Part shown: piece after piece, positions 1-52,898 of the stretch
How the letters are laid out: every line of letters begins with the position of its first letter
Position numbering within the stretch: the stretch's first letter is position 1
DNA from: Phalacrocorax aristotelis
Taxonomy: Eukaryota > Chordata > Aves > Suliformes > Phalacrocoracidae
DNA: 64,000 nucleotides
Direction of reading: 5' to 3'
Assembly (NCBI RefSeq): GCF_949628215.1
Contig: NC_134281.1
Coordinates: forward strand, 6,272,501 to 6,336,500
Program-made: the position numbers and the translations under genes
The notes under the pieces: generated by a model
The model's database searches: none
The model's input: only the letters and a program-made list of their open reading frames with translations
What the model was told of the DNA's origin: nothing

Positions 1-2243
1 AATCTGGGAATAGATTTAATGTAATAGGCTTTATATGGGGATACAAGCCTGGGTATTGCTACTTGAAAAAATGCAGTGCTTGGCCACAGACCACCCCCAC
101 CACAAAAGCTCATAAACCCCTACAGCACCACCAAACCCAAAACAACATGATTTTTCCCTTCCTTCCCCTTCCGGTGAGGCTGATGACCTCTTTGCTGGTC
201 ACTAAGGGATGGAGCTGGCACTGCGAATTAAAGCACTCACAAGTGTCTGCATGGGCGTGTGCGTGGGCACAAGTGCATGGGAAGCAGGGGACAGGGAAAA
301 TTAATGCAAGAGAAAGATCGAAGCTACAGGAAGTTCTTATCTTTCTTTTTAAGTATTTTTCCACATTTTCCTGAGCATTTCCATGGCATTCATCCTTTCC
401 CTGCTCAAGATCGAGTAGAGGATGATGAACTTCAGTGATAACTTTTACACCAATCTGGTGCAATTTTATCCTCTTGGTTGACAACTTGCCATTCAAAGAC
501 CCAGAGGCACGTTCTTCCTGCAGCCTAACTCTGGTTTCAGTTCCTCCAGCGTCCCCTGGGCTGTCATCAGGTGAAGTTTTTCTGGCAAAGGGAAGAAATT
601 TCAACATTATGGTAACAACCAAAATCTGAGTATGCTGCATTAAAAAAAAAAAACCAGCAACCAAGAGGGAACTCCTGGAAAAGGTCCATCTGTGCACGAG
701 CACGACAAATCAGCTCAGAAGCATTACAAATATCCCTAAATTACAGTGCTAAGAGGACCAGGCTTGACAATAGGCCCGTCTCAGTGCTGGCAGCCCCTCC
801 AGCCATAGGGGCTTGGGAAGAAGGGGTTGTGGGACCGAAGGACCCACTGTTCAACCCCAAATCTTTCCCATTTCCAGTTGGTCCCAGACAGGTGCCTATC
901 TGTCTGCTGGTTTGGAGTAAAAGGCTCCAGCTACCCTGGCCAGGTGTTGTGCAGCTCTAGGGTTATTTTTTTTTTTCAGCCAAAGAAATGTTGCATTGCA
1001 GAATAGAGGGAAAGATGTCAAATCTCAAATATTTTGCAAGACAGAAAAAAAAATGGTTTTCCTCGTAAACTGCTGAGAAAAGCAGGGCATCTCCAGATGC
1101 TATTTCACAGAAGCCAGGCCTGTGACGATGTCTCTGGATGAAGTGAGATGCTACCCATTACAAAGAGAAAGGAATAGATGACTGGAAGAAGTCCATAGCC
1201 TCCAGACAGATTAGATTACCCTATCTGAAGAAAGTAACCACCAGAAATGGCTGGTGATACTTCTGCAGGCCAGAATTTAGAGCCATTTCACCTTCCCCCC
1301 CCACCCCCCGGCTCCCCCACCACTCCTCAGTAAAATGAGAAAGAATTCATAACCCGTGTCAGCCACACTCAGATAATCTAAGACTTAAAGAGTAGAACAT
1401 TTCATATAACCTCTTTTCTGCCCCTCACAAATGCTTTAACAACTTTAATAAGATAATGTATAGCTATTATCGTACAGCAAGCGTAAGTCAAACAACTATC
1501 AGCTATTATTTCAGCAACAGAACGAACGCTCAGCGTTCCCGTAATCCACAGCCTGGAACAGTTTACACATTGTCAATTTTAGACAGAACTGGCTTTTTCC
1601 ACGTATCAAAATGTACACTGATAAATGGGAATTGTTTAGCAGACCCCACATGGCTGGGTGATATACTGTAGCTCAAAAAAGAATAATGAGGGTATCAGTT
1701 GGACTTCTGAATTAATGATACCTTAAATTAGTTTAATTAATTAGTTTAGTTACTAGAGTAATTTAGTTAGCAGGTTAATTAATGTTTGTTGAGCACTTGG
1801 AGATAAAAGCCGCATATAAAGGCTGCTATTATAGGGTGGATCCAGAGGTGCAGGTTTTCTTCGGTCTTTGTTTATTCCAGCATCAATTTGATGCAGGGCC
1901 TCATTCTTTGAGCCTTTCAGCAGGCACAGTGTGGAGGCTGGCTTGCTGATTTTTCATAGGATACGGTCCAACACAGCTATTGCCACAGTCAATATTCAAT
2001 TGGGAGAATATCTTCCCAAATTTAGTCAGGACTTTTTGTTCTCACCTCCTCTCCTTGAGGCCACAGGCGCACACAGACACACACAGGTCCTGCACACTTT
2101 GCTATGTATTTGGGTACAGCTAACTCTCATTCTTCTTCCTTCCACTGTCCCCCACGTATATGGCGTATTCTGAACAGAAAATCTAAGAACATATTCATAC
2201 AGTCCCAGGAAAGAAGCAAAGGGTTACACAGGAGCATCCATAC
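1..2243 (-). other. MT-Ox intron after exon 2 (partial, runs off left edge)
   Basis: The exon at 2244-2403 ends in a GT donor and must splice to something further left. I searched the minus strand here for the expected start of the methyltransferase domain and found none, so the next exon is presumably beyond base 1. The stretch has an A/T-rich low-complexity patch of repeated TTAG/TTAAT units near 1720-1790. A 197-codon open frame at 110-703 (minus) resembles nothing I know. Confidence 0.5.
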
Positions 2244-2403
2244 CTCTTCGAAATTGCCATTGCATCCAGGTAAGGGTCTAGTCCAAGAGCAACATCAAGA
2301 GCTTTTTGTAAGTAATTCCTGAGCTGTTCAGGAACACGAGAGTCATTGAGGGCTATTTCTTTGGCTTTGAGAAGGTTCTCAGCAATAAGTCCAGCTGGGG
2401 TTT
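2244..2403 (-). CDS. MT-Ox: MT-Ox coding exon 2
   Basis: On the minus strand a pyrimidine-rich acceptor (TTTTCCCTTTCAG) ends at 2404, and the exon runs 160 bases to AAGAG|GTATGG at 2244/2243. It enters in phase 1 and leaves in phase 2. The translated core is ETPAGLIAENLLKAKEIA, then LRNYLQKALDVALGLDPYLD and AMAISK. It is amphipathic and strongly helical, and corresponds to the N-terminal helices that precede the methyltransferase fold. Confidence 0.85.
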
Positions 2404-5400
2404 CTGAAAGGGAAAATAAAAGGAAGAGCAATGATTTCCTAACTGCTCAAACCAGCAGAAGAGGAATTTAGCCTGAAAAAAACAAATGCATTTTTTTTCC
2501 AAACAAAATACAGGTTTTTGAAGGAATATTAAAACAATCATGGAAATCTTTTCAAACTGAAAAGATATTATCCTTCTAATTAATTTTTGTCTCCTACATT
2601 CTCCCTTTTCTCCCCCACTGCTGATCCTTTTCTGAGAGGAAAAGTATAAGAATATTTCAGAAACATGAATTTTTGGTTTTGAAGCTCTGAGACGATGACT
2701 GAACCCTGAAAAACTCCATACAAAACCCACCCCTCTACGTAACTTTCTCCTTGGAGAAAACAGAGCACTTCTCAAACAGCTTTTGCAAAACCAGGCAGAT
2801 CCTTTCAGGCCAGGAACGTGCAGACACTGGGTCTACCTTTGTAAAAAGGAGGATCTCCACTACCTGCATGCCCATGGGCTGCATGAGCCCCCAACACGTG
2901 TCTGTGCCATGGAGGCTGCTGTGCAGAGTCTGCAGAGCAACCCATGATGTTCCTCTCTGAAGTACAATTACACCTGTCCTAATGTAGCTGAACTGACAAA
3001 TACTCAAATAAAATATTTTGCCAAAACCATGATGGCATAAAATCAAAGATACTCTTCAACTAATGATTTCTAAGGAGGTGATGTAGCAATCAACCTGGCA
3101 GGACCACAACCTCCTGACCTTTCTTCTGCCTTCAACCTGCCACAACAGCTTGCAGTGGAGACACACCATCCTGAACTCTCTGTTTCTCAGGTCACAAAAA
3201 CTATGCTTGAGCCCATCAGCACCACGTGGCAAATCTCCCAGCATCTTTTCACAAGCCAGACCCTGCCAAAAGCTGATTATTCAGGTAGAGAGAGAGAGAG
3301 TTATGCACGACAACACATGTCAGCATCTCAAAGGCTGCAAAAACACCTCTAGGAACAAGATAGCCTGTCCTGGGGGCAAAAGCCATGTTGCCCATGGCAC
3401 TGTACTTGCCCTGAGACCCCAGAAAACCTGTATCACCACGTGGCAGCAATGCAACGGTAGGCCCTGGTGAGCTATGGCCCCATGGAGCAGCGAGACATGG
3501 TTCAGAGAAACTCCCCCTCTTCTCAAGTGTAACAACACGTGCAGGGTTATGAAAGCACCAGCGAGGGCAGATTTCAGAGACACAGGGCAAGCAGGCTGTG
3601 AGTATCACTGGGGTGGAGCAGATTGCCCCTGGCAGGATTTTATTCCCTATGTTAGAAAAGCTGCAGACAACTAAGTGAAGCAGGTGAAAAGAGGACATGT
3701 TTCCCTCTGGAGGACTGGCCCGGACTAGCCCAGCAGCTGTGGGGCGAAGCCCTGTCCATGTGGAACTGCTGCTGCTGCAGGCACCACATCCCCATCCCAG
3801 AACAAGTTTCTGGTGGACCCTTGGACACCACAGAAGGCATCCAGCTGCCCCACGGTCTGCTGGCAGACCTGTCGTATGAAGGCACTGAGGACATCAGAGC
3901 ATCACCTCATATAGCCTGCTGTTGAGAAAGACTGTGTGAAGGCAAATGCAACTGCATATTTTAGGAATAACTTTTAATCAGAAGATCGTTAAAGGATCAG
4001 ACTGCAAAGTAGAGATACATATGTGCCTCTGACTTCTCTGTTCTCCACTTCTTTCCCATCTACTTAAAATGCCACCTTGGATATATTCCCCAAACACTGG
4101 GTCTTATGGGTGTCCTAACCCAGCTTTGGTGGTGGTCTGCTGTTGGCTTCTAGCCAAGGGATAGAATGACAGGAAGGTGTTTGATTTTTTTATTGTCTTC
4201 TCTGTCTGAGCATTTCAAGGGATAAATCTGAGATAGCTGCACTGAGCAACTACATCCTCAACCCAGCATGTGAGGATAGTCAAGCCTCCTCATTATGGAT
4301 GTGACCACTTTGAGTTCCTCTTCCTTCAGCTCCCCCGCACACCAAGCTGAAGGGAGATGCAGCAGGTGACCCCAGCACCAAAAAAGCACCGGGGATTCCA
4401 GTTGCTGGAGACCTTCCCCTGGTACCAAGGGGCACCATATGAAAAAACTCATGCCTTTGGGAACAGGGGAAGGTCTAAAGCTCCCCAAAGATCTGGTTCT
4501 CAGAGCAGCATTTCTCAGCTTTCTGTAGCTACTGAGATGACAACTCTTTTGTTTTCTGAGACAATTTCACTAATTTTCATTACCCAAATTACAAAAAAAA
4601 TATGAAAGCAGACAAGGAACATAAAATATATGTGCATTTTACATGGGAATTGCCAGCCTGGACCAGACTTAGAGGTCATCTAAACAGCATCATGCTCATG
4701 GCATTAGCCCAACCTGACATATGAGGAAGGCAGATTTAGGCTAGCTATTGCAGCCCCTGATTTACGTCTCATGCCAATCTCTCACCACCAGGGGCAGCTT
4801 ATATCTCTTTCAGCAGTTTTATAACTAATTGCAAGCGCAGGAATAACCATCCCCTTCCCAGACCAAGTTGGTTTGTTCACCACAGCCCAGCTACGCGTTA
4901 TGTGGAGACACGTTGTCTTTTTGCAGGGTTTTCAGCACCTCATGAGCGAGCATCTCCGGGCTCCCGCTGTACAGCTGCAGGATGCTGGAGGTCAGGATCT
5001 GCTCATCCTCCCTGCCAAGCACTCTGAGGCTTTTTGCTAACTTAGAGCAAATAACATGTTTATAATCCATGTTGGATTTTAGTAATTATCATGTTATGTT
5101 TCTGGGTGAATAACAGACAGGAATCCTCTGTCACTCAAGGGGGAGGGAAACAAGATTTTCCTCCTGCCGTTTTGTAACCTGTGTTACACCACCAACTGCA
5201 AGCGCCAAGAACTGCTACCAGGGAGAGAGAGCATGCAGTGCACGCAGGTGCCAATACGCTATATCTAAGATTATACAATCCTTTTAGGAAGCGCTGCATT
5301 TTTTGAAGCCTGATGATGCTTTGGGCCAACAGCAGAGGTCAGAATTGCCTTCATTTAGCAAGCACCGACAAGTCGGAGCAGAGCTCAGGGCTGGCTGCTG

Positions 5401-7918
5401 GGCCTGGCCAGGCTGCACTCAAGGCTTTGAGACCTCCGGTGAGTGAAAATTTATGTAACTACTGAGGGTTTTTTGGCTACTGCAGGGAAAGTGCTTCATT
5501 TTTAGCCCACAGTTTTGCACAACCCCAGCAAAGCCGTTGGACCATATTAAGCACTAAACGAAATTGCCTGGTTGCCCCCCCATGGCTCTATCTATGCACA
5601 GATATCTCCCTTTCCCACTTAATTGTGCATCATCATCTTCATGCATATAAGGGGAAAAACAAAAGAAAAAAGGGAGCTCACTCAGAGGAGGAAAATGCTG
5701 CCAGGTGCAAAGCAAAGGAGTTCAAGCCCTACCAAGAAAGAGCAGGAAAGCCTCCATCAGCTTCATAAAAAAGGTAAGGTGACAGTTCTTAAAATGGACC
5801 ACAGCTGCCAGCAAGATGGTTCCCAGCATTTTCTTTGGTAGATGCTGAGAGCAGAGTCAGCCTTTTTTACGATGAAGCCAAATAATAGATTGCAGCTTCT
5901 ACTTTTTCCAGAATAGGCACTTTTGGTTCCAGCCAGGATGAGTCAGGATTGCAGGTGGGGGCTGTATGTGGGGGATACTGGCGTCCCCTGCGCAGGCGGG
6001 CAGTGCAGCACCATGGAGGGACATGCTGCTCCAGAAGCCGAATTAAACTCAGCAGCTTGGGTTTAGATGGTGCTTTTGGGGTTGAGGGAGCTCAGTCAGG
6101 AAAGGGGAGGGCACTGTATTGTTTTTGCAGGGGACTGACCAGAAGAAAGCCTGGAGACAAGCACACAGGAAGGCAGTCTGGATTTGGCAAAAACAAAGAA
6201 AGCAAAAACGCCACATCCAAAGATGCAGACCAGATCTTTGGTTCCCATTTTTGGGCTATCCTCATTTCACCTTCTAGCCTTTAGATCTATTTTGCAGCCC
6301 CAGCAACGACTTCCAGAAGAGGTCCCCTTCCCAGCCAGGGCAGAGCACTGAACCTGATCCACGCGAACACCATGCGGTCAGACAGCTTGGTGCTCGGGTG
6401 CTGAGCACTTCGGCAGGAGCTATTCAGAAGTAAAAACTTGGAAATCCAGTCTGATAAAATCTTCCCAAACAGTTCCAGCCATTACATTCACCAAAGCACC
6501 TCAGGCATTGACAACAGCTTATCACAACACTCACCTCTTCACCTTACCGTGTAAATACACCTCAGCTGCTGCATTTTACCAGGCATTCCTGTTTATGGAA
6601 ACAGCAATGCAATACTCGAGCTATTTCCTTACCCCACCAGAGCCCAGCACACAAAACTGCAGCCTTTTAGGAAGACCCTGTGCTACTGCTTGACCCAAAT
6701 ACATTAAACCCAGCTGTGATGGACACCCATCGTATGGATGGAGCTGTAGCAGAAGGAAGCAGGAGTGTGGCTGTGGCACAGCTGGGGCTGTTCAGTGGCT
6801 CCAAACCCACCACCCATGAGCCCGGGCCATGCACCGGGGCACAGGCATGCCTTAGCTCACGTGGGGCTGAGAGAAGGCTGGCAGCATGGGCCAAACACAA
6901 CTGCCTGGCCATTAAACATTGCAGGGGGTCCTGAGCACAGCCAGCTGGGTTCAGCTTAATTTATCAGCTTGGCCTTAGCATCAGTAGTGCCAGAGCGTGC
7001 AGCAAAGTCAGCAGCAATGGCAAGGGGAGAGGTAGCAGCTTTGGGGTGGAGTGGGAGCACAAGGAGGATGAGGGGGAGGAAGCATCCAGGGTAGGGAAGC
7101 TGCAGCTCATGGCAGGAACCAGGGTGCTAAACTCTGCCTGAACTTCATGGGAGGAAAACATACACCAGCCAAAGTGTTTTCTACAGTCTCTACTGCTGGA
7201 AAAGTAGTAGAAAAGCTGGATGCTCCGCAGCACTCCTCTGCTTGCATTAAGGAGGCTCTGGAGTCACTGGCAGAGAGTATGCGAAGCATAATTTATTTTC
7301 ATAGATAATAAAGGATGCCGTGTGTGGCAGGAATAAGCAGTACCCACTGACAGTCAGATCCAAAACCCAAGGCAGTTGAGGGGAGTCTTTTGATAGCTTC
7401 AATGGGCTCTAGATCAGGCTGTAAGAGAACAAAGTCTCTCCGTTCAGAGAAGCCTGGATTCCCACATGCAGCTGTTTATTTTAAAAAATGGCCAAAAAAA
7501 GGCAGCAAATGCCTCACTGGGTGCCACACCAGGCACACGTGGCGATCACAGAAAGCACCAAGACAAGGTTAAAGCTGCAGAGAAAAAAAATATTTCTAAA
7601 AACAAGCATCCCAGTCCATCAAAATTAGTCACAGCCAAAGCTGTCTTGGCACTGGGACTGTCCACCTTCCCACCCATCCCTTTCTCCCGGAGCATCCACT
7701 TCAGGTTCCTGCAGCCCCACCTCCCCTGCTCAGCCTCAAACTCCTCTCCCCAGTAAACCCTATCTCTCCTCCTTTCTGCCAAGCCACAGAGCCTGCAGAT
7801 CACACCTCTGCAGGGCAGTGGGGGATCCAGAACCATTCACATGGTGTCCCCTCCTGTCACACCGTCTCTCCTGGAACTCCCCACCCCACACAGCGAGTTT
7901 ACCTGCAGGCTTATGCAT
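2244..7918 (-). CDS. MT-Ox: MT-Ox (gadusol-forming methyltransferase-oxidoreductase), 5' part only
   Basis: MT-Ox is a two-domain enzyme, with an SAM-dependent O-methyltransferase followed by an NAD-dependent short-chain oxidoreductase. It converts 2-epi-5-epi-valiolone, the EEVS product, into gadusol. Only the N-terminal leader and first helices are in this window: coding pieces 7903-7918 and 2244-2403, 58 codons plus two bases. The peptide of the second piece (core LLKAKEIA, LRNYLQKALDVA, GLDPYLD) matches my recollection of the start of zebrafish MT-Ox (LLKAKEIA, LQKALDIA, GLDEYLE). The gene is divergent from EEVS, with start codons about 3 kb apart, as expected for the vertebrate FRMD4B-MT-Ox-EEVS-MITF synteny. 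Neither catalytic domain can be checked here, so I cannot say whether the gene is intact further left. Confidence 0.8.
2404..7902 (-). other. MT-Ox intron 1 (5.5 kb)
   Basis: This lies between the inferred first exon and exon 2. It contains five CACGTG E-boxes (3223, 3437, 3536, 6858 and 7536; one more, at 2895, lies near exon 2) and a same-strand 59-codon ORF at 4891-5070 with very GC-rich third positions. I see no transposon or RNA gene in it. Confidence 0.5.
4891..5070 (-). CDS. Orphan 59-codon ORF or terminal exon inside MT-Ox intron 1
   Basis: The frame opens at an ATG in a good context (CCAACATGG) at 5068-5070 and ends at TAG 4891-4893. From about codon 14 it reads like coding sequence: SLRVLGREDEQILTSSILQL, then YSGSPEMLAHEVLKTLQKDN, with nearly all third positions G or C and an amphipathic helical pattern. 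The first dozen codons are A/T-rich and look intronic. A possible acceptor (GCTCTAAGTTAG, ending 5037) would enter this frame in phase 1, the phase of the MT-Ox first-exon donor, so it could be an alternative terminal exon. I do not recognise the protein. It could also be a decayed exon of another gene or chance. Confidence 0.3.
   Translation of the reverse strand: MDYKHVICSKLAKSLRVLGREDEQILTSSILQLYSGSPEMLAHEVLKTLQKDNVSPHNA
7903..7918 (-). CDS. MT-Ox: MT-Ox coding exon 1 (inferred start)
   Basis: On the minus strand an ATG with A at -3 is followed by four codons and one base, then a donor (GCAG|GTAAAC). This gives MHKPA plus the first base of a Glu codon, exactly the phase 1 that exon 2 needs, so the joined start is MHKPAETPAGLIAENLL. 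The leader length is close to what I recall for fish MT-Ox. The call rests on phase, donor and start context only. Another first exon anywhere upstream would also be possible. Confidence 0.5.
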
Positions 7919-10869
7919 GTTGCTTCTTGTCCCCCAGCCTCAGAGGATGCTGCTGTGGGTTTGCTGCCTCTGCAGAGAAGCACGTTGGTGTTCAGGTGTC
8001 TGTAGAGGGGATGGGCTCCTCCACCCGTGCTCACCTGGGCACACCAGCCCCAGCTCTGTGGAGAGGCTGTGCAGGGAGGATGGCCCCGGGCTGGGGCTGC
8101 ACCCGCTCCAGCTGCACCCACCTGCCCCCACCCAGAGCACAGGCAGCAGATGAGATCCAACAGTATCTGACATGACAAAAAGAAAACAAAAAAAGTCAAC
8201 ATTCACTGCCTTTGCTTTACGTAAGAGCAATGTTCACATCTTTACCTCAGGAAGCTGCTGGCTCTCAAGGAGATAACTGACAGTTTCATAACCTTCTGGT
8301 TACATAGCACGGGCATATGTCCCAGCTAAACTATCAGGTATGAGGCAAAAAAAGTTCCAGGACTTTGAACCCTAGATTATGTACAAGCAGTCCGTAGCTA
8401 CGAGGTCACTGCTGCTGCCCTGCACAGCCAAACGTCGGAGCAGCCCCTGCGCTGGGGTCCAGCTCAGAGGCCAGATCTCTGCATGGGATGGGGGTGGTTG
8501 TGTGACACACGTACCAGTGGCCCTTCACCCCCAGAAAGGGTCCCAGGAATGCACCCACAGGAGGAACCAGTGGGAACATCCAAGGTATCCAAAAGCCTAA
8601 GCTGGCCTGCAGAGTTGGAGCAGAAAAGGCTGGTGAGGAATTAAAGCAAAGCAATTAAAGAGCATGTGATGGAGCTGAGGTCGGCTGGCTGTCTCCTTTT
8701 CATGCACGTGAAACACAAACCGAAGCTAATGAGGAAACGTGGACTACCACATAACCAAAACAGCACCTTTCACTTGTGGGATCTATCACCCTGGGCTTGT
8801 TCTGTCAAGGACTGACTCAACATACCTGCAAAGCCTGCCAAGAGAGCTCAGGGCTGGGCTGAGGAGGTGAAGAGGCTGCGGGGAGCAGGTCCTTGCTGTA
8901 AGGCTTTTGGCAGCCCCTCTGCAGGAAGGATGTACAAGGACATGACAGTCATCGGCTATGGCAAGCAGACAGGCATCGGAAAGTCAATTTGTCAACTTCT
9001 AAAATGAAACAGAAGACATTTCAAAGCCCCCAGAATAGAATGGGGATGTGTAAATGGAAAATAAGTAAATGCACAGGACAAAAGCATAAAAGAAAGGTAA
9101 ATGAAATCAGTCCCAATGCTTAGCAGATTGCTATTAATCAAAACAAATAAACAAGGCAAAGAGGACAGACCTCCTTGCATACCTAAGATTATTTCATCTT
9201 ATGATTTAGTAAACAACAAACTGCATTAGACCTGCAGTGCCCGTGAAAAGCAATCCAAATTGTGTTTGGATTGGGAGTTAAAATTTCAGGCAAGTATTTG
9301 GTAACAGGCTAAGAGCTTTAGTATGCCATCTAATCCATCTTCCAGCAGCTTTGGAGGTGACTTTGGGCAAGTTGCTTCTCTTCTGGTGACTCTATTTTCC
9401 TCTTCTGTAAAATGTGGATAACAGTCTGTCCCCTTTGCAAAGCGCTTTGCTATCTGGAGATGAAGCCAGCAGTGAGAACTACATGTTAGGAGTTATTACC
9501 CTTCCTGGAGCAGGGCTACATGGCTTTAAAGTTTATCCTTGTAGCTTTTTCCCCAATATTGATTTTGAGATAAGTGTAGGCTCCTAAGTGAGTTTGGCTC
9601 CAATTAAGCCTTCAATGCAATGAAGGGGTTTTGTCCGGTGGGCTCTTGAAGAACCATTTTTTCCAGCCTCTGCTGTTATGTCTGTTTTCAGTTTTCTTGA
9701 TCTTTGTTTCTGAACAAGGACAGCTTTCAGAAACACAGCCAAGAAGGCGGCAAAGATGGGTTTGTACCTTCAGGCACTGCTGGTGAAAAAAGGGAGACCT
9801 TCCCCTGTGCTCAGCACACACAGCTATATGCCAAGGGAACGTTTGGTGTGGCAAGCTGAGCCCAGGGCCCTCCAGAAGGTTCAGCTGGAAGATCATATAG
9901 AAAGGTGAATTGTGCATCCCTCGATCACGTGGGGAGCAGCAGGGTGCCGGCCGCCATTGCCAGCACCTGCTTCCTACCACCCCCCACCACGCCATCGCTT
10001 CCTAGAGAAGGGGAATCCATCCCTCTGGCTGAGCCCACCCTACAGGAGCAATGTCCCTTGGGTCCAGGAGATGGGGTCTCCCCAAGTACGCATCAGGGAT
10101 CTGGCATAGTCTTAAGACAAAGAGGTGACAGTTGCAGGAAAGCGTGGGAACCAAAAGGCAGAGCCATCAAGGCTCAGGTACCAGTGCCTGGACAACACTG
10201 CTGATCCTGAAACAACTCCACCACAGAGAAACCTCAGCATCTCAGGGTCCCACAGATAGGTAGGCAAATGAATCAAAACTTAGCTCATCCCCCAAACAGC
10301 CCTTCAGAGGAAAAACTCCCTGATTATTTTTTTAAACTCACCATAAAAGCTAAAAACAATGACAAAACCATTCTGTTCCTCAACACAAGAGAATCCCATG
10401 AATCTGAGCTCAAAAGAGGTTTAAGCAGCTGGTATCGATCACGTTTCCATGCTCCTGCTCCTGTCTCACCCCATAAAAGCAGGTTAGAGCTGCAGCCAGA
10501 TCAGAGGCTCCACACAGCAAAGGAGTTTCCTAAATGTCATTGAGAATCACACAAATTGCCTTTCATAACTTTAAATTTGCTGTAGGGCATCATGCTGGAA
10601 GTTAATATATGCACTCCTATTGTACTTCTTAAGCATTATAAAACTAGCTGATTATACAACCCCATCCTGGTACTTGCACGTGTCTTCAAATGCTCCTACC
10701 ACCCTTAACGTGCATCCCAGATTAGATAACCTTAGTTTTGTAATTGGTCTCCCCCGTGGAGGCAAGACCTCCCCTTCTAAAACCTGGTCACCTGGAGCCT
10801 TTAAAAAGCACCTCAAAAGCACCCAGTTACGGGAGATCTCTCAACAGGGAGATTTTACCTTCTGAAAGC
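7919..10869. promoter_or_regulatory. Divergent MT-Ox/EEVS intergenic region
   Basis: About 2.95 kb separates the two start codons, so the two gadusol genes probably share promoter or enhancer sequence here. It holds three CACGTG E-boxes (8705-8710, 9926-9931 in the form ATCACGTGG, and 10677-10682, about 190 bases before the EEVS ATG). The part next to MT-Ox (about 7921-8160) is G/C-rich. I see no convincing TATA box and cannot place either transcription start. Confidence 0.45.
10677..10682. promoter_or_regulatory. CACGTG E-box upstream of EEVS
   Basis: A perfect palindromic E-box lies about 190 bases before the EEVS start codon. This core is bound by MITF/TFE, USF and MYC family bHLH-Zip factors. 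Occupancy is not shown by the sequence. Confidence 0.35.
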
Positions 10870-11039
10870 ATGCCAGTGTCAGAAGAGGCCTTTGCTGGAG
10901 CAGCCCCAGCCATCATGCCCCAGAAGTGCCGGCAGACAGACTTCCAGCTGGTGCGAGTCAAGAGCACGTGGTGCCGGATCAAGAAGGGAGAAGACCTTTC
11001 TGACTGCGAGGACAAGATAACGCTCTCCGAAGCAAAAAT
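10870..11039 (+). CDS. EEVS: EEVS exon 1
   Basis: Starts MPVSEEAFAG and ends GCAAAAAT|GTAAGT in phase 2. The frame is open upstream to about 10744 without an ATG. A CAG at 10845-10847 could be the acceptor of a non-coding first exon, so the 5'UTR may be spliced. A CACGTG lies inside the exon at 10965. Confidence 0.93.
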
Positions 11040-14000
11040 GTAAGTACAGGAGCCCACGTTGCTCCTTGCCGACTGCGCTGGATGGCTCTGCCTAGCCAAA
11101 CTGTGCAGTCTCCTTAGTGGGATGAATGTCAGATGGAAAAAACCATCTTGCATGCCGTTGTGGCTTAAACCCACCATTACGTGTACAACCCTGTGCAAGT
11201 GGGCTTCGAAAGGGGTGCAGTAGGGCAGCACAGGTATTTGCTGTTCTCCTTGGCATGACTTGGCAACTTAGCCAAGGTACGGAGGGAATTGAATCAACAG
11301 CCTCAATTTTTGTAGATGGGAAATTTCTTTAAACTTCTGAAAAGCTTAGGCAGGAACTTCTGAATGCTGTACTAGGGCTTTTTTTTCCCCCCCTGTATGT
11401 ACATGAAAACTTTGTGTGCAAAAGCTCATGCAGCAGCATAGGAGAACATGTTTGTAGAGGTGGTTGCAGATAAATGAAATGCTTAGATGCAAAAAATAAA
11501 CACAGTAGGTCACTGACAAGAACAAAAACCATAGCACATCTTTCAAACTGTGGAAGTCACCTACTGCTACTTCAGCCAGAGGAGAGAGAGGAATTTTCCC
11601 CAGGGATACACGGAGCTCTTTGCTGATATCACATCTCTCCAGTTAATTATCCTTTAATTACAGGATAGTCCTTTTCATGAGCACATGGAGCCCCGTTTGT
11701 GATGCATGTCAGAAGTTTTCTAGCATTTCTCATCCTCAGGTTTTAATGTCACAAAGTCTAACCCTTTTCTCAGTCAGGTCAGAGGGATCTTCACCAGCGC
11801 TGGCAGTGGGCAGCGGCTGCACGCGAGCATCGCTCGGGCAGAGCTGCAGTAGATAGAACAGGACTTCAGTAGACCCAAAGGCAGTCTGCCGGACCTCAGT
11901 CAATAAAAGGATGACCCTAGGGCCCAGAGCACTCCCAGAAAAATCCTCAGCTGACATATGCTTCAATAAAGGTATATTCAGCCCCAAATTCACTACTATT
12001 TTTGTACAGCAGAGGGGTTGCAATGGGTGCTAGTTGTGCCATCCAGCACTCAAAGCTGATTCCACCAACTAACATTCAAAAACATCCTGTCTCTTAGAAG
12101 GGTTACGTGCCAGAGATGGATGCACATGCAGTTGAAGTATAGCTGTAAGGTATATACTTGGTGCATTAAGATGTACACAATGATTCTTTTTGTAATACTG
12201 CATTCCTAAAGCCCAGAAGAAATTTTCTGGAAGGTATAAGTCCTTATTGTCTTTCTTTAACACTTAAAAAGATTAAGGATAGTCTTAGAGGCAATTTGGT
12301 AAAGAAAGCAGAGAAGCATCTATTTAGACCTGTAAGAGAAAGTACAGTCATGTCAAAAGAAATTGGGTGTGTAAGGAAACCTGATTATCCAATGAGCCAT
12401 CTGCTCATTCAAAAAACAAAACAAAGGTTCACAGAAACGGTCAACTTTTACCCAACTGCAGCTCAAGGAGAGGTCTTGTATAAAATACGTGTTGCAGTTT
12501 CTGTCTTCCCCCACCCTCCTTGATTCCCAACAAACTAAAAAAGCCACTTGTTTTCCCCCTGGCTCCCCCTGCCCCACAGAAGTAATAACAGGGCCATGTT
12601 TTAGACAGATACTACATCCTGGCTTTGTAGGCTTTTATTTATCCTTTAAAACTCCTGTATGGAATTTTTGCCAACTCTCAGTTTTCTTTTACTGCCTGGG
12701 AGCAGTTCCTATTTCTGTCATACCTGTTTCGAGGTAGAGAGATTCACTGTTTCAACTGGAGCATTGCAGAGACACTATTATGTACAGAGGTGTGTGGCTG
12801 TGTGTAGATAGACTGGAATAAATCAACTCTTATCACCCAGATATAGTGGGCAGAGGATGTTTCCTCCACAAATACTTCGGAAAATTTTGGCAATGTCTTC
12901 CCCACACACTTTTGGGAAGCTGAAATGACTGGTCTGGGGTTTTCTGCTGGGGTTTTCCACTTCCAGCATGAATAACATGCTCCAGCCCTTCTAGCTTTCT
13001 TTTTTATCATTACCATGTAGAAGTTCAGCCATGTACCTGTTCTCTAAGACAGGGCAGGGTTTATCTGGTGCCAAAGAAATTGAGCCCCAACAGCCAGGAG
13101 AGCCATCCCACCCTCGCAGCCCCACACTTTTGCAGTGCACAGACGGGAAACTCCACATTCCCCACCTTCCGGCTACATCCTTAAACTTGTTCAGACATGC
13201 AAAGTACAAAAGAGGAATATAGTAATCTCAAACCATGTTTTCTAATCCTTGCCAGAGGTGAATGCATCTCCGAAGGTGGGATTTCCTGGACAATAGAAGC
13301 ACCCATCTATTTTTGCTACAAAGTGGTAGAAACATACAATATTCTGGATCCCTCTAACACTACTCTGCTCTGGGGTCACATTACTGAACCCCAGCAACTA
13401 GAGCTAGCCACTAGCGCCAAAAGGAAGCTGAGGCGCTTTATTGTCATAGATGAAGTTGTTGATGAACTTTACGGCTCCAAAGTCAGAGAATACTTTGAAG
13501 AGAACAACGTTCAGCACAAAATCCTTGCCCTGCCTACCACTGAAGAAACGAAATCCATGGACCTCGTCTTGAACATCTTGCAAGAAGTCCAGAAATTCAG
13601 CATTGACAGGCGAACCGAGCCCATCATCGCCATCGGAGGTGGCGTCTGCCTGGACATCGTAGGACTAGCCGCGTCGCTCTATAGAAGACGTACCCCTTAC
13701 ATTCGGGTCCCAACAACCCTCCTCTCTTACGTTGATGCCAGTGTGGGTGCAAAGAACGGGGTGAATTTCCTGCAGTGTAAGAACAAGCTGGGGGGCTACA
13801 CTCCCCCGGTAGCCAGTTTCCTGGATAGATCCTTCATTCAGAGCATTCCTCGGCGACACATCTCCAATGGCCTCGGTGAAATTTTAAAGGTAAGAACTTT
13901 GTAACTGCAGTTTTCAAACCCAAAATATTGATAAGACGTCCATCAGCATCCATGGTGTTGTATAAACTGCCTTATAGAAACAAAGATGGGCCCTCAAGGC

Positions 14001-16995
14001 TGCATGGGGACTTTTAACTCTCAGTGTGCCTACATATATCTTTCCAGCTGCTAAACTTGTTAGAATATCCCTTACAAGCAGTGCCTAGTGCTGACCCTGC
14101 AGAGTAACCTCTAAAACTCAAGGCCAGATGTAGACATGGCAAAACCAGGGAAGAAAGCATCTTCCCATCGAGGCTGATCCGCAGCACTCTAAAATGAACC
14201 GCTGGTCAAGAAATTGAAGCTCATTATACTGGAGATTAATAATCTGCAAGATCATTTGCACCTACCTCGTGGGCAATGTCGAGTGTGGTCAATCAATCTC
14301 CTGCCAGACAAATTCTACTTCTAAAATTACCTGGGAAGTTCACAGTAAATGGTTTTATGCCTGAAGAGCTTTCAAAACTTTTGATAAAGCAGAGTTCAAG
14401 CTATTAAAGTTCATTAGAGATGAGCTCATCAGTAGTATTTCTCAGTGCTTGCACAATGGGAACCCCTCAGGATATCTGGAGGTTTCTGGCAGGTACTGGG
14501 AATCCCAGAGATCACCATTCCTCACTGCAGAAGTGGGCTAATGCCTGAGTCAGAGGGTGAAAAAATACGTACTTGTAACTATGAAACCGCTTCTGAGCCC
14601 TTGTATTCCCCATACAGCAGTGCTTTCCCACCTTCCCTTGCTCAAAAAGCAATCCCAAGGTTTAGATGAGAGTTATCTTGGGGATGTCTACCATCCTGTA
14701 CCTGGCCTGGGGATGGCTACTTCTCAGTACTATTCAGCTGAGACAGTCTCGAGTTTCCTGCCAGGCACACAAATAGCCAAAGCTCGTACAAACCCTCTGC
14801 TGGGCCACCGGAGCACGTAGCGAACACACAGAATGGTCAGAGCTGCCCAGCAGCAAGGGAACTTGCCCACCAGCGTTCCCATCATCTCTTTTACCAAGTG
14901 TGCAGGTATTTCTTTGCTACATATGATATTATAGTTCAGTCTAATGAAACTCCTAAGTTTAGCACAGCACATGCAAAGATCACATAATTATCTTTAATTA
15001 CCTCTTCTCCTCTTTGTCCTAGATGGCACTCATGAAACACAAAGGGCTGTTTGACCTGCTCAAGAGCCATGGGAAATACCTTCTGGACACCAAGTTCCAG
15101 TCCTACAGTGGCTGTGCTGACTACAGGGATGCTGCACTGCAGACCACCAGGATTGCCATTGAAACCATGTTGGAAGAGCTGGCTCCCAACCTCTGGGAGG
15201 ATGACCTGGACAGACTGGTTGATTTTGGTCACCTTATAAGCCCAGAGCTGGAAATGGTGAGTGACAGACTCGGTATGGCAACATCAAAAAAAAAAAAAAA
15301 GTTTTCAATCAGCAGCATGAAAACTTTGTGCAAAAGGGTCTGAGCTAAACTCCAGATCTGCACATTCCCTCAGATCACCCAACGCACCCAGCCTGGTCCT
15401 GTTGTATAAAGGGACCCCTTTCCCAGCCCTGTTTCCCCCACACCTCCACCCATGATTCCCATTGAGACCACAGGCCAGTTACTGCTTCTTACCAGGCATT
15501 TACCAAAGCACAAAGATGTCTGGATTTCAGTGAAGCCACTAGAAATCACCAACATGAGCTATAACGGTGCGAAGGTATGGAGACTGTAGCCTCCATAGCC
15601 TGTATTACTGGGCAGAAATTGCCACTGTGGAAAGAGGGGAGACGACTAGCCCTTATGCAACATTCAGAGCTCTTCCTTCCATCCGACGGTGCTCTTCGTC
15701 AGTGATTTGAATGGGAGGAGAATTAGATCCTGGATCACTACAGGAGATTTTACTTACAATTAATCATGTGTAAAACAGATCATTCTCTGCATCCCATCAA
15801 TCACAAGATGCTAACGTCCAGCAAATCTGTATTTCTACTGCTGCAAGTCAAATGTCAATTTTCAGGAGTAATTTTAGAAACAAAGCTACTTATTTACTAT
15901 TTGTTAACCCTAAGCCTTTTCTCCCATCCGCCTTTGCTCTGTTTCAGAGGGTTTTGCCATCGCTGATGCATGGAGAAGCGGTGAACATCGACATGGCATT
16001 CATGACGTACGTCGCCCATGCGCGGGGGCTCATCACCGCCGAGGAGAAGGAGCAGATCATCCAGTGCATGAGGGGCCTGGAGCTGCCGGTCTGGCACAGC
16101 GGCTGCAGCTGGCCCCTCATCAAGAAAGCCTTGATGGAGCGCCTGAAGCACAGCGGGGGACAGCTCCGGATGCCTCTCCCCACCGGCCTCGGGGTAGCAG
16201 GTACTGCGGCGAGGGACAGCGGGGAGCCCCCGGGAGCGGGCGCGTGGGGGGCGGCCGGCATCCCGGCACACAGACGTGCTGGAATACGTGCCCTGCAGTT
16301 CTGCAGCGGCGCATTCCTGGCTTTACTTGTGCTTCTCTTAACATCGCAATAAACCCACCGAGAGACAGGATCCCTCTCTTGCGTGTAACCACCAGAACTC
16401 AGTTAAGGACTGAGGCCTAATTAATTGCATTACGATTGACCAATTCACTTTGCAAACGTGTTTGCAAACAGTCTAAACGCAGTGCTCTGGCAGATAAACC
16501 AGCAATGTCATAAGGGAAAAATAATTCCTTTGTTATTGAAAATAGTTAAGTCATCCTTGGCCAGAAGAGTTTAATATCTCACTGTGGCTAGAACTAATAC
16601 CTGAAAACTAAATAGCATCTGTTCAATATCTGGGGTGAAACATTCTTTCTTCTGAGACTTTTTTTTTTTAAAAAAAAATCAACCCCTAACATAGATACAA
16701 TGCATGGGACCAGGTTGTGATCTCTTGCATCAGTATTCATCCAGACTATTTCCATCCAGCTCAGTCTCTACACACTCAGTAGAAAACTGGCTCTCAAACT
16801 GTTTGGAGGAGCTACTCTTCTCCTAGAGAATTAACGTACACAAGCAGGAGAAGCTTCCCTGAATGTCCAATTAACGACAAGCCTTACTTTACAGAGATAT
16901 TCAATGACACTAGCGAAGAGACCCTGGAAAGAGCATACCACCTGTGGGTCAGGGACTGCAAGACGATGCTGGAAGAAGAGCCGGCTGCCCTGTGA
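10870..16995 (+). CDS. EEVS: EEVS: 2-epi-5-epi-valiolone synthase (complete, 5 exons)
   Basis: The spliced coding sequence is join(10870-11039, 13256-13889, 15023-15256, 15948-16200, 16895-16995), 1392 bases and 463 residues. All junctions are GT-AG and phases match (2, 0, 0, 1). The product is a sugar phosphate cyclase of the dehydroquinate-synthase fold, which uses NAD+ and a divalent metal to cyclise sedoheptulose 7-phosphate to 2-epi-5-epi-valiolone in the cytosol. Visible residues are the NAD-binding GGG at 184-186 (IIAIGGGVCLDIVG), the VPTTLLSYVDAS stretch at 208-219, and the presumed metal ligands Glu265 (GLGEILK), His354 (LMHGEA) and His370 (VAHARG). The 16-residue spacing of the two histidines is that of dehydroquinate synthases. 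The first ATG is used because no ATG lies upstream in frame; Met16 is an alternative. Nothing is broken. It is divergent from MT-Ox and convergent with MITF. Confidence 0.97.
11040..13255 (+). other. EEVS intron 1
   Basis: It has a GTAAGT donor and a TCTAATCCTTGCCAG acceptor. I see no repeat or second gene in it. Confidence 0.85.
13256..13889 (+). CDS. EEVS: EEVS exon 2 (NAD-binding half)
   Basis: It encodes residues 57-268, from the split Ile codon through GLGEILK, and ends AAG|GTAAGA in phase 0. It holds the nucleotide-binding GGG, the substrate-contacting VPTTLLSYVDASVGAKNG region and the first presumed metal ligand, Glu265. Confidence 0.97.
13890..15022 (+). other. EEVS intron 2
   Basis: It has a GTAAGA donor and a TCCTCTTTGTCCTAG acceptor. 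Nothing else was recognised. Confidence 0.85.
15023..15256 (+). CDS. EEVS: EEVS exon 3
   Basis: It has 78 codons in phase 0 at both ends (residues 269-346), beginning MALMKHKGLFDLLKSHGKYL and ending SPELEM|GTGAGT. It is part of the helical C-terminal domain of the cyclase fold. Confidence 0.96.
15257..15947 (+). other. EEVS intron 3
   Basis: It has a GTGAGT donor and a TTTGCTCTGTTTCAG acceptor, with a short poly-A run near 15285-15300. Nothing else was seen. Confidence 0.85.
15948..16200 (+). CDS. EEVS: EEVS exon 4 (metal-binding histidines)
   Basis: It encodes residues 347-430 and one base of the next codon, and ends GTAGCAG|GTACTG in phase 1. It carries His354 and His370, the expected second and third metal ligands, and the conserved PLPTGLG. 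It is much more G/C-rich than its neighbours. The frame stays open past the donor for another 50 codons. Confidence 0.96.
16201..16894 (+). other. EEVS intron 4, with a possible intronic poly(A) end
   Basis: The exon 4 frame reads through to TAA at 16350-16352. That stop sits inside an AATAAA (16348-16353). A transcript that failed to splice could therefore end here with a hydrophobic tail (FLALLVLLLTSQ). The regular acceptor is CCTTACTTTACAG ending at 16894. Confidence 0.6.
16895..16995 (+). CDS. EEVS: EEVS exon 5 (C-terminus)
   Basis: This exon is too short to show as a long ORF. It enters in phase 1 (GCAG + AG gives Ala-Glu), reads EIFNDTSEETLERAYHLW and ends LEEEPAAL before TGA at 16993-16995. 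IFNDT followed by an amphipathic helix is what I expect of the EEVS C-terminus. Confidence 0.93.
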
Positions 16996-18766: not shown

Positions 18767-19210
18767 CTAAACCATACCCTCAAGCACCACGTCTGCCCTT
18801 CTTTTAAATACGTTCAGGGATGGAGGCCCAACCACCTCCCTGGGCAGCCTGTGCCAACGTTTGACAACCCTTTCGGTGAGGAAGTTTTTCCTAATATCCA
18901 ACCTAAACTTCCCCTGGCGCAGCTTGAGGCCATTTCCTCTCATCCTATCGCTTGTTACTAGGCAGAAGAGACTGACCCCCGCCTCGCTACAGCCTCCTTT
19001 CAGGTAGTTGTAGAGAGTGATAAGGTCTCCCCTCAGCCTCCTCTTCACCAGACTAAACACCCCCAGCTCCCTCAGCTGCTCCTCATAAGGCTTGTTCTCT
19101 AGACCCTTCACCAGCTTCATGGCCCTTCTCTGGACACACTCCAGCACCTCAATGTCCTTCTTGTCCTGAGGGGCCCAAAACTGAACACAGCATTGGAGGT
19201 GCAGCCTCAA
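18767..19210 (-). pseudogene. CR1 polymerase C-terminal segment after frameshift
   Basis: It continues the same protein in another frame: [40 protein letters not shown] and the end [13 protein letters not shown]. These are standard CR1 C-terminal blocks, so this is a single insertion with a frameshift and not two elements. Confidence 0.9.
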
Positions 19211-20078
19211 CCGGTGCCGAGCACAGGGGCACGATCACCTCCCTGCTCCTGCTGGCCACAGTATTGCTGATACAAGCCAGGGTGCCATTGGCCTTCTTGG
19301 CCGCCTGGGCACACTGCTGGCTCATGTTCAGCCGGCTGTTGACCAACACCCCCAGGTCCTTTTCCTCCAGGCAGCTCTCCAGCCACTCCTCCCCAAGCCT
19401 GTAGCACTGCATGGGGTTGCTGTGACCGAAGTGCAGGACCCGGCACTTGGCCTTGTTGAATCTCATACCATTGGCTCTGGCCCAACGATCCAGCCTGTCC
19501 AGGTCCCTCTGAAGGGCCTTCCTGCCCTCCAGCAGATCGACACTTCCACCCAGCTTGGTGTCATCTGCAAATTTACTGAGGGTGCACTCAATCCCCTCAT
19601 TCAGATCATCAGTGAAGATATTGAGCAGGACCGGCCCCAACACTGAGCCCTGGGGAACCCTGCTCGTGACTGGCCACCAACCGGATTTGACTCCATTCAC
19701 CACCACTCTCTGGGCTTGGCCATCCAGCCAGCTTTTAACCCAGCTCTTGTCCAAGCCATGAGCAGCCAGCTTCTCCAGGAGAATGCTGTGCGAGACCGTG
19801 TCAAAGGCCTTACTAAAGTCCAAGTGGACAACGTCCACAGCCTCTCCCTCATCCACTAAGCGGGTCACCATATCATAGAAGGAGACCAGGTTAGTGAGGC
19901 AGGACCTCCCTTTCATAAACCCATGCTGGCTGAGCTTGACCCCCTGGTTGTCCCACATGTGCTGCGTAATGGCATTCAAGATGATCTGCTCCACGACCTT
20001 TCCCGGCACCGAGGTCAGACTGACAGGCCTGTAGTTCCCCGGATCCTCCTTCCAACCCTTTTTATAGAGGGGCATCAC
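19149..20078 (-). pseudogene. CR1 reverse transcriptase, main open segment
   Basis: About 310 codons of the CR1 polymerase stay open, containing the RT core with FADD at residues 170-173. There is no genuine start: the first codon in the frame is GTG within continuous homology. The frame is lost near 19210, and the sequence after that is out of frame with the family. Confidence 0.9.
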
Positions 20079-20262
20079 ATTCGCTAGTTTCCAGTCACCT
20101 GGGACGTCCCCGGTTGACCAGGACTGCTGATAAATGATGGACAGTGGCTCAGCGAGCTCCTCTGCCAGCTCCCTCAGGGTCCTTAGGTGGATCCCATCTG
20201 CCCCATGGACTTGTGAACATCCAGGTGAATATCCTGTAGTTCCTGACAGCAGCTACCACGTG

Positions 20263-28830: not shown

Positions 28831-48111
<19,281 letters not shown>

Positions 48112-49982: not shown

Positions 49983-50014
<32 letters not shown>

Positions 50015-50020
50015 GGGGGG
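49981..50020 (+). repeat. Poly-T/poly-G run
   Basis: Twelve T, then twenty-one G, one A and six G, followed by more G-rich sequence. Quadruplex-forming and probably length-variable. Confidence 0.9.
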
Positions 50021-52898
50021 CGGGGCGGGACACACAGAAAGGGTAACGGGGGGGAAGGAAACTGTCTTCCTCTGCCCACCCTCACAGTGAATGTAACAGC
50101 TAGATAAACATCGCTGCATATTTGCACGCAGTATAACTGCAAAGGCAAATTATAATCTAGTCAGTTTAATTCCTATCACACCACACAGTCGCTTTGGCTC
50201 ATGGAAAAGGTATATCCTTCTGTAAGTGTTTGGAACACAGTTAACCAGTAGATCACGTTTTCATGTAGAATCAACTCTTGCTCCACATGGGCAACAAAGT
50301 GACTCTGAGGAAATTCATTTACTGTCAGGTCTCTGGGCTTCAAATCACCAGAAGCGGAGAAGATGCTCTATTGCCTTTACAAAAAAACCTACCAGAAGAA
50401 CCAGTCATTACACGCTAGGTACGCACCGTTCTCCAAGGATGTGTCACCTTCTCACACGAGTCTAGTAGTGAACCAAAGAACACTGAGAACTGCTTTTTCT
50501 GTCACTAAATTGCTCCGAAACGATGCAAAGGAAAGATTCAGGGACTGAACATTTCCTTTTAATCCACAGCTGGTCAAACATACTTTCACATTTGAATACA
50601 AGAACATACAATTTTTCTCCAGATGGAGAATACAGCCTAACTGCTCCCACAGTTGCATGTCAGTGCAACAGGACAGGAGATCCCACAGGATGGAAGCAGC
50701 TTCACACACATTTCTTTTTGGACAGATGCACCAGTTTCAACTACCAACTACTCTGGCCCAGTGTGAGGCCCAGCAGGCTACACAGAAGGCATCCAAGAAA
50801 CTTCAGTTTGATTATTTGTTGTTTCACTTACTGCCCTCTTGAGCTGCCTTACAAGCTCCATCATTGAAATCTGGTGGGGGCTACCTTCAAGAACTCAGTG
50901 TTTTTTGTTGAGACTAACTCTTTGGCCTAGAGCATCCTCTTCTGCAGTCTCTACATCAAAGAGAGCCCAATGTGTCTACTTGGGTAAACGTCCCAAGATG
51001 TATCAGTCACGGTCAGCCTGTAGATAAGTCATAAGGCAGCCTTACTCTTTGACAAAATATCTCACAAGCAAAGAGCTGCAAAACAAACCCTAAACAGAAA
51101 TTCCACTGCCCCAAATTTGAAACTGTGAATAAAAGCTTTGACTTAATTAAGATCTAATTTTGGTCTTCAGCCCCTTCTTGCATTTGGGGTGAAGAATAGT
51201 TCTTGTTGTTCTTCCAAACTGATGAGACACGAAGTACAAGATGACAATTTATTGGTTTGGATACAGTCCTGAAGAAATGAGTCTGAATGGGGACATGCAA
51301 GAAAAATGGAAAAACATGAAACTACATCCTCTGTATCCTCAACCATCTATCTCCAGGAATCTCAACCCAAGCTTTGCTGTAACATTACTAAACTGAGTAG
51401 AAAATTGGTTTGGGGGCATTTTGCTATTGGCAAGCAAGTAAAAAAATGGAAGAATCATCTGCAGAACTCTGGAAATTATTTAAGACAAATTTAGCTGCTT
51501 TTGCCATCTTATCACACCATGGTAACAGAAGAATTTGGCTACAAGGAGCTACAGATCAAGGATGGCCAAGTGGCAGCCCACAGCCCGAACTTGGCAAAGG
51601 AACCCCTGGAAGAAAGCTGTACTTTCAACTGTATTCAGGTGCATTTTCAATCTGCTCGGTTATCAAGGTTCTGCTTACATGGGTAATACAGAATAACACT
51701 GCCTCAAAGTAGAGGCCCAGAACTGGTTTCATGTTAGAACAGCCTCCAATGCCACCTCAGCAGCATCTCCACTAATCTCCATGGGCTGGCTCCATGCACA
51801 GTTAGAACTATCACTGCATCAGGTATTCCTGCACTACGAGTCTCATCGGACAGCAATTCAAGCTCCATCCATTCTTGCCACGCTGACACTGAGCTAGTAG
51901 GCTGCTTCTTGAGCTGAAGCACTGAGAAAAACAGTATGAAGAAATCAGTTTTACTGTGCCCTACAAGGCTGAGCTGGGCTGGAAATTTTTGGATGGAGCC
52001 ACACTGATTACTCAGCACTCATCCCTCGCCCTTTGGAATATCCTGGAGAACAATGTTATCTCAAGCAGGGGAAAGGTTTTCTCATACCTTCACTAATCTC
52101 AACATCTGACTGCTAATTCCAGTGCATACATCCAGTTCAAGTATCTGAGTAGGGGAAAAACAGTTCCTGATAAGCTGCTCATTTTCTTCCCCATCACAGA
52201 AACAATAGCAATAACCAATATACATAGAGTAGATTTTTCCCAGCCCTTGGGTCTAGAGTCAATCAAGCAAACATTTAATCAATGGCTTTCACTTGCTTTA
52301 AGCATACACACCATATCAGTAGGAATTTTAGGTGTACTTCAGACTACGTTCTTCAAAATCCTTGTATTATATTACACATCAGTGACAGGGCTACTGAGTA
52401 GACCCATATACTTCCTTCAATTTGAAAAACTAAAAATGCTTCCTATTAAGGTCATCAGGGGCTCAGGAATTTAAACACAAAGCACAGCTGTGTGCTTAAG
52501 CACAAATATCTTGGCTCAAATAGCTCCTCTGTATTCAGCCAACACAAGCAACTGAAACAATACTTCTGATACTTGCTCCTCCTGGCAAATCTTGCTGGCA
52601 ACCACTCAGGCTTAATTTACTAATAACTTGCTAACAACAGCAAGAACTTGGGACAGTGCTACATGGCAACAGATCAATACAACCCCACTCCCAGTGGGTA
52701 TGCAGGGACCAAATCCCTTTTGTAGAGGCACACAGGAGAGTTCACTCTTGGGCTTGGCCAATGCGTTTTGCATAGTATAATCAAGAAACTAAATGGCTAA
52801 TGATTAAAATAATGGGGAACTTACACCAGAATAATAATAATAAAAAAAATAATCAGTAATTAGCTCTGGCTTTACTACCAATCATCCTCTTCAAGTCC

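Follow-up and report, generated by a model that had tools for sequence, protein, structure and literature searches.

The genome of Phalacrocorax aristotelis carries an uninterrupted gene of the EEVS class of sugar phosphate cyclases, very probably an EEVS orthologue that makes 2-epi-5-epi-valiolone from sedoheptulose 7-phosphate. It lies in a 64,000-nucleotide stretch of DNA (hereafter the window; C6:6272501-6336500 in assembly coordinates), at window positions 10870-16995 of the plus strand, beside the partner gene MT-Ox. The MT-Ox frame is open as well, and catalytic positions of its methyltransferase half have changed. We tentatively propose that the gadusol pathway operates here without methylation: EEVS and the oxidoreductase would be kept, the methyltransferase would be a pseudoenzyme, and the product would be an unmethylated cyclohexenone reductone, serving perhaps as an antioxidant or an ocular filter.

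The occurrence of EEVS in a bird is already known. Osborn et al. (2015; PMC4426668) reported that birds have kept the EEVS and MT-Ox genes and that mammals have lost them, and a table of that paper covers 11 birds, including chicken, with no bird row marked absent. The air of novelty that an earlier note on this DNA gave to the gene is thus out of date, and P. aristotelis is one more bird for a pathway published in 2015. That note's remark on the absence of the gene from mammals agrees with Osborn et al. The same paper demonstrated that zebrafish EEVS and MT-Ox make gadusol in vitro; compared by description, the vertebrate EEVS genes treated there (zebrafish LOC100003999 and the bird orthologues) share with our gene both the class and the linkage to MITF and MT-Ox. 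Five exons, the number seen in the bird EEVS, are also reported for teleost eevs-like genes (PMC8294118). According to a green-algal study (PMC7826186), the algal EEVS and MT-Ox are close relatives of their vertebrate counterparts. A paper on owl genomes places an EEVS-like gene and MT-Ox among 19 light-associated genes, and its section 35 mentions neither as inactivated (PMC5629816).

Structure, class and active site of EEVS

The five exons join into a frame of 1392 nt, encoding 463 residues and a stop codon; all four introns have GT-AG borders, the phases are compatible, and the joined frame has no internal stop. Re-reading of the coordinates confirmed everything that the earlier note had said of this structure: five exons, GT-AG junctions, matching phases and 463 unbroken residues. 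Pfam recognises DHQ_synthase (E 3.7e-30) and DHQS_C (E 1.8e-18) in the protein, and these matches, together with one of 327 bits to the solved structure of ValA (4p53), exclude a chance origin of the frame. In the whole 1.279-Gb assembly (352 contigs) EEVS was the sole match found for the DHQ-synthase family (PF01761), a count that is to be read as a lower bound.

Among solved structures, ValA ranked first (E 1.2e-96), followed by 5tpr (E 1.1e-61), which we take to be a DDGS while its PDB entry title says 3-dehydroquinate synthase, and by the DHQS 3okf (E 1.6e-37). This order supports the class EEVS named in the earlier note. The match to ValA spans residues 57-445 and leaves the first 56 residues of the bird protein uncovered.

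We aligned the bird protein with 27 sugar phosphate cyclases, of which 24 came from fetched loci and three from PDB chains. The GGG motif (residues 184-186), Glu265, His338 and His354 are invariant in all 27, and Glu265, His338 and His354 are the metal ligands. The earlier note had located the GGG, Glu265, His354 and His370 correctly, but its pairing of His354 with His370 in the active site does not hold: the position of His370 is occupied by histidine in 2 of the 27 cyclases, and this pair was rejected as metal ligands. The slip may be explained by the fact that His338 and His354 are also 16 residues apart.

Two further residues, Asp335 and His414, are what we presume to be the two published sites that separate EEVS from DDGS. 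Both are shared with ValA of Streptomyces hygroscopicus, which also has the same metal ligands, and with three plasmid-encoded proteins annotated as sedoheptulose 7-phosphate cyclases, from S. clavuligerus, R. rhizogenes and A. vitis. The 20 DDGS-type rows, which comprise 5tpr and genes located beside MysB-type genes, have Ala at the Asp335 site without exception and Thr at the His414 site in 18 cases. Pro342 of the bird protein is Pro in 25 of the 27 cyclases and His in both DHQS-type rows. A figure legend in PMC4426668 mentions two class-separating sites, with the residues unnamed.

Another class of sugar phosphate cyclase, whether DDGS, DHQS or a further one, is very improbable. In its favour, the superfamily is the same, NCBIfam returned solely DHQS-type and related models, all far below their cut-offs, and the class-separating residues are imperfectly exclusive; against it, ValA is the best match by a wide margin, Asp335 and His414 are unlike the DDGS-type rows, and Pro342 is unlike the His of both DHQS-type rows. 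DDGS and DHQS were rejected as the class of the gene on this margin and on these alignment residues.

Several observations weigh against taking the gene for a working EEVS orthologue. Asp335 and His414 do not mark EEVS alone: L014, a protein from Deinococcus with the annotation DHQS, carries both, and another protein (L015) combines Asp at the first site with Arg at the second. The tree sets bird EEVS apart from the DDGS-type and DHQS-type groups, both of them supported, but the fork that would join it with the EEVS group is drawn open; the bird sequence forms a long branch, whose join with ValA the program flags as possibly false. At 54 near-invariant columns, bird EEVS differs in 10, the DHQS-type rows in nine each and all other rows in 0-5. 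When five sequences are each scored at the positions common to the other four (leave-one-out), bird EEVS differs at 21 of 112 positions (19%) common to ValA and the three EEVS-type plasmid proteins, while these four differ at 3-12 of 94-103 positions (3-12%). The unusual changes include A264G and F340I near the metal ligands and R415S elsewhere, the ligands themselves being untouched; as read from the alignment, they count against taking EEVS activity for granted, and EEVS itself may be under relaxed constraint. The case rests on genome sequence, compared with a set that holds no vertebrate EEVS. When bacterial genomes were scanned with this one protein as the query, no relative turned up.

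The partner gene MT-Ox

MT-Ox is located to the left of EEVS on the minus strand, mostly outside the window. Its ten exons give an open frame of 536 residues without a stop. Pfam finds in the joined protein Methyltransf_3 (E 1.3e-36; score 126 bits, cut-off 22) and then adh_short_C2 (E 4.6e-60). The order of a methyltransferase domain followed by an NAD oxidoreductase domain, beside EEVS, is that of zebrafish MT-Ox (zgc:113054); judged on bacterial relatives, the bird methyltransferase half differs in missing conserved catalytic residues. The oxidoreductase half retains the cofactor and catalytic motifs of the SDR family (TGGGQGIG, NNAG, SMAS and YNTSK) and looks intact by this measure.

The N-terminal part of the model is less even. 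In the genome search, the exon with the N-terminal methyltransferase helices was the one match obtained; Pfam gave no match on this exon alone, nor did NCBIfam on the methyltransferase pieces. The exon linking the helices to the SAM domain is probable and is the weakest of the model: it keeps the frame, which breaks without it, is eight residues shorter than its MysB counterpart and uses a GC donor. A search with canonical GT donors gave no credible exon, and alignment with MysB led to the GC-donor one. The start codon has to be sought in a further exon, upstream of the helix exon; a search for this first coding exon gave three candidates, none convincing.

The reference protein here is an O-methyltransferase from a plasmid of Nostoc sp. 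HK-01, the best plasmid match of the methyltransferase half (E 4e-51, query residues 2-255). Its record says O-methyltransferase family protein; the name MysB is our own assignment, made because the gene adjoins a DDGS-type gene. MysB is a separate protein, unlike the bird fusion. We fetched the best 80 of 570 bacterial loci encoding a relative of the methyltransferase half and dropped six with a stop in the matched stretch, so that the aligned set comprises 74 loci and the Nostoc protein, 75 in all.

At 39 near-invariant columns (at least 90% agreement), the bird differs in 11 and the 75 bacterial proteins in 0-5; the columns were chosen on the bacterial sequences, which makes the bacterial misses low by construction. 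Distance from MysB is not peculiar to the bird, whose identity to it is 44%, many of the 75 being further away (identities from 36%). Four changes, in MysB numbering, are of special interest: E121L at the motif I acid, E or D in 75/75 relatives; K199Q at the position of the catalytic lysine, Lys in 75/75; D224E at the metal-site aspartate, Asp in 75/75; and D268S in the DG pair, Asp in 75/75. The roles given to these positions are presumed, after those in catechol O-methyltransferase. MysB retains E121, K199, D224, R267 and D268. In the bird, the affected stretches read ILLIGKLKGYS, FIDADQ and CVEN (L002:9244-9476 and L002:1854-2090), in a gene otherwise open.

Two controls were applied to the choice of columns. 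The first is formed by three class I O-methyltransferases of the same genome, whose readable exons keep the acid (2/2), the lysine (2/2), the metal-site Asp (2/2) and the DG (1/1); in paralogue L096 the acid position precedes the exon start, with AG directly before the exon, and is uncovered. Two other changes, E147A and R267Q, were not counted as evidence because the former, which affects the ribose-acid position, is matched by an Ala in paralogue L098, and the latter position is Gly in L096, although Arg267 is held by 75/75 bacterial relatives. The second control is the leave-one-out comparison. In the oxidoreductase half the bird departs at 15 of 72 positions (21%) and the other rows at 7-16%; for the methyltransferase half the figures are 19 of 57 (33%) and 5-10%, and two other choices of methyltransferase partners gave 16/52 and 15/53 for the bird. 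The excess in number thus appears moderate. What sets the methyltransferase half apart, on the aligned residues, is that its departures hit catalytic positions, unlike the EEVS ligands or the oxidoreductase motifs.

What the pathway may produce

We suggest the following scheme. EEVS most likely carries out the ring closure of sedoheptulose 7-phosphate to 2-epi-5-epi-valiolone, using a bound NAD+ and a metal that Glu265, His338 and His354 coordinate. MT-Ox, encoded on the opposite strand, comes next, and its oxidoreductase half seems capable of oxidising the cyclitol. The methyltransferase half probably adds no methyl group, and the end product here may not be gadusol itself. EEVS activity, its product and the action of the oxidoreductase on this product are inferred from sequence. 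The sunscreen compound that the earlier note had attributed to the gene is doubtful: MT-Ox is also needed for it, and the conclusion is unsafe because the methyltransferase half of this partner departs from its relatives at catalytic positions.

A reading close to ours, quite plausible although we would not give it even chances, is that the methyltransferase half is a dead enzyme kept as a scaffold, and that the product is an unmethylated oxidised cyclitol, a reductone like desmethylgadusol. It agrees with the loss of the acid, the lysine, the metal-site Asp and the Asp of DG at positions held by all 75 bacterial relatives, with their conservation, where covered, in the paralogues of the same genome, and with an open MT-Ox frame and an intact-looking oxidoreductase half. 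On the other side, columns picked on bacterial sequences favour departures in any animal protein, the leave-one-out figures (19% for EEVS, 21% for the oxidoreductase half, 28-33% for the methyltransferase half) make the excess moderate, and D to E is a conservative change. The argument, made on bacteria and same-genome paralogues, fails if active fish MT-Ox has the same residues. Loss of methylation in the bird MT-Ox is, on these sequences, possible but unproven.

Somewhat less probable is a full gadusol pathway working as in fish, the substitutions of the methyltransferase half being tolerated. The Methyltransf_3 score still far above its cut-off, the identity to cyanobacterial MysB and the stated presence of the pathway in birds (PMC4426668) would fit it, but the changed positions include ones held by 75/75 relatives.

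Decay of the pathway in this lineage, with EEVS and MT-Ox open yet unmaintained and the methyltransferase half most decayed, we consider unlikely. It would account for the 11 of 39 near-invariant positions, the short linking exon with its GC donor and the unusual substitutions in EEVS, and loss of the pair has been reported for catfish (PMC6173838), pufferfish, coelacanth and mammals (the last three in PMC4426668). Old neutral decay should break frames too, but the 999 modelled codons of EEVS and MT-Ox contain no stop, and the oxidoreductase half keeps its four motifs.

Among the matches listed in the open literature, a scope outside which lie supplements, preprints and subscription papers, no degenerate methyltransferase half was described for bird MT-Ox. 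Should this half prove to be catalytically dead in birds, what the pathway does in land vertebrates could be tested directly.

Locus and neighbouring features

EEVS is flanked by MT-Ox exons on the left and by an exon with a DUF3371 domain on the right, which gives the adjacency to both MT-Ox and MITF. We assign DUF3371 to the C-terminal end of MITF-family proteins. A frame at 44052-44147 on the minus strand is, as we take it, another MITF exon; Pfam gave no match on this short piece. EEVS and MT-Ox stand head-to-head, diverging from the interval 2403-10870 of the window. In fish the two genes were described as tail-to-tail in the catfish paper (PMC6173838), which may point to a change of orientation or to a loose description.

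Exons of EEVS, MT-Ox and the MITF-type neighbour in P. aristotelis
Feature	Window position	Assembly position (C6)	Strand	Content
EEVS exon 1	10870..11039		+	Residues 1-56; start codon at 10870 and a further in-frame ATG at 10915
EEVS exon 2	13256..13889		+	NAD-binding GGG (residues 184-186); metal ligand Glu265 (codon 13878-13880)
EEVS exon 3	15023..15256		+	Asp335 (15221-15223); metal ligand His338 (15230-15232)
EEVS exon 4	15948..16200		+	Metal ligand His354 (15969-15971); non-conserved His370 (16017-16019); His414 (16149-16151)
EEVS exon 5 and stop codon	16895..16995		+	
MT-Ox exon	2244..2403	6274744-6274903	-	N-terminal methyltransferase helices (TPAGLIAENLL...LGLDPYLD)
MT-Ox linking exon, probable	490..581	6272990-6273081	-	Helices to SAM domain; GC donor (AATG|GCAAGT)
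MT-Ox exon		6271744-6271976 (L002:9244-9476)	-	Methyltransferase half
MT-Ox exon		6264354-6264590 (L002:1854-2090)	-	Methyltransferase half
MT-Ox exon		6262852-6262929	-	
MT-Ox exon		6261368-6261584	-	
MT-Ox exon		6256539-6256747	-	
MT-Ox exon		6255941-6256013	-	
MT-Ox exon		6251322-6251439	-	
MT-Ox exon		6244930-6245125	-	
Open frame with last exon of MITF-type neighbour	28834..29256		-	DUF3371 domain, E 5.6e-33

Between EEVS and MITF, at 19152-20252 of the minus strand, lies an open frame of 367 residues with an RVT_1 match (E 1.9e-35), a LINE-type fragment, probably CR1. A tRNA scan of the window found none. A tandem repeat of period 1, with 37 copies, mostly G, occupies 49993-50029.

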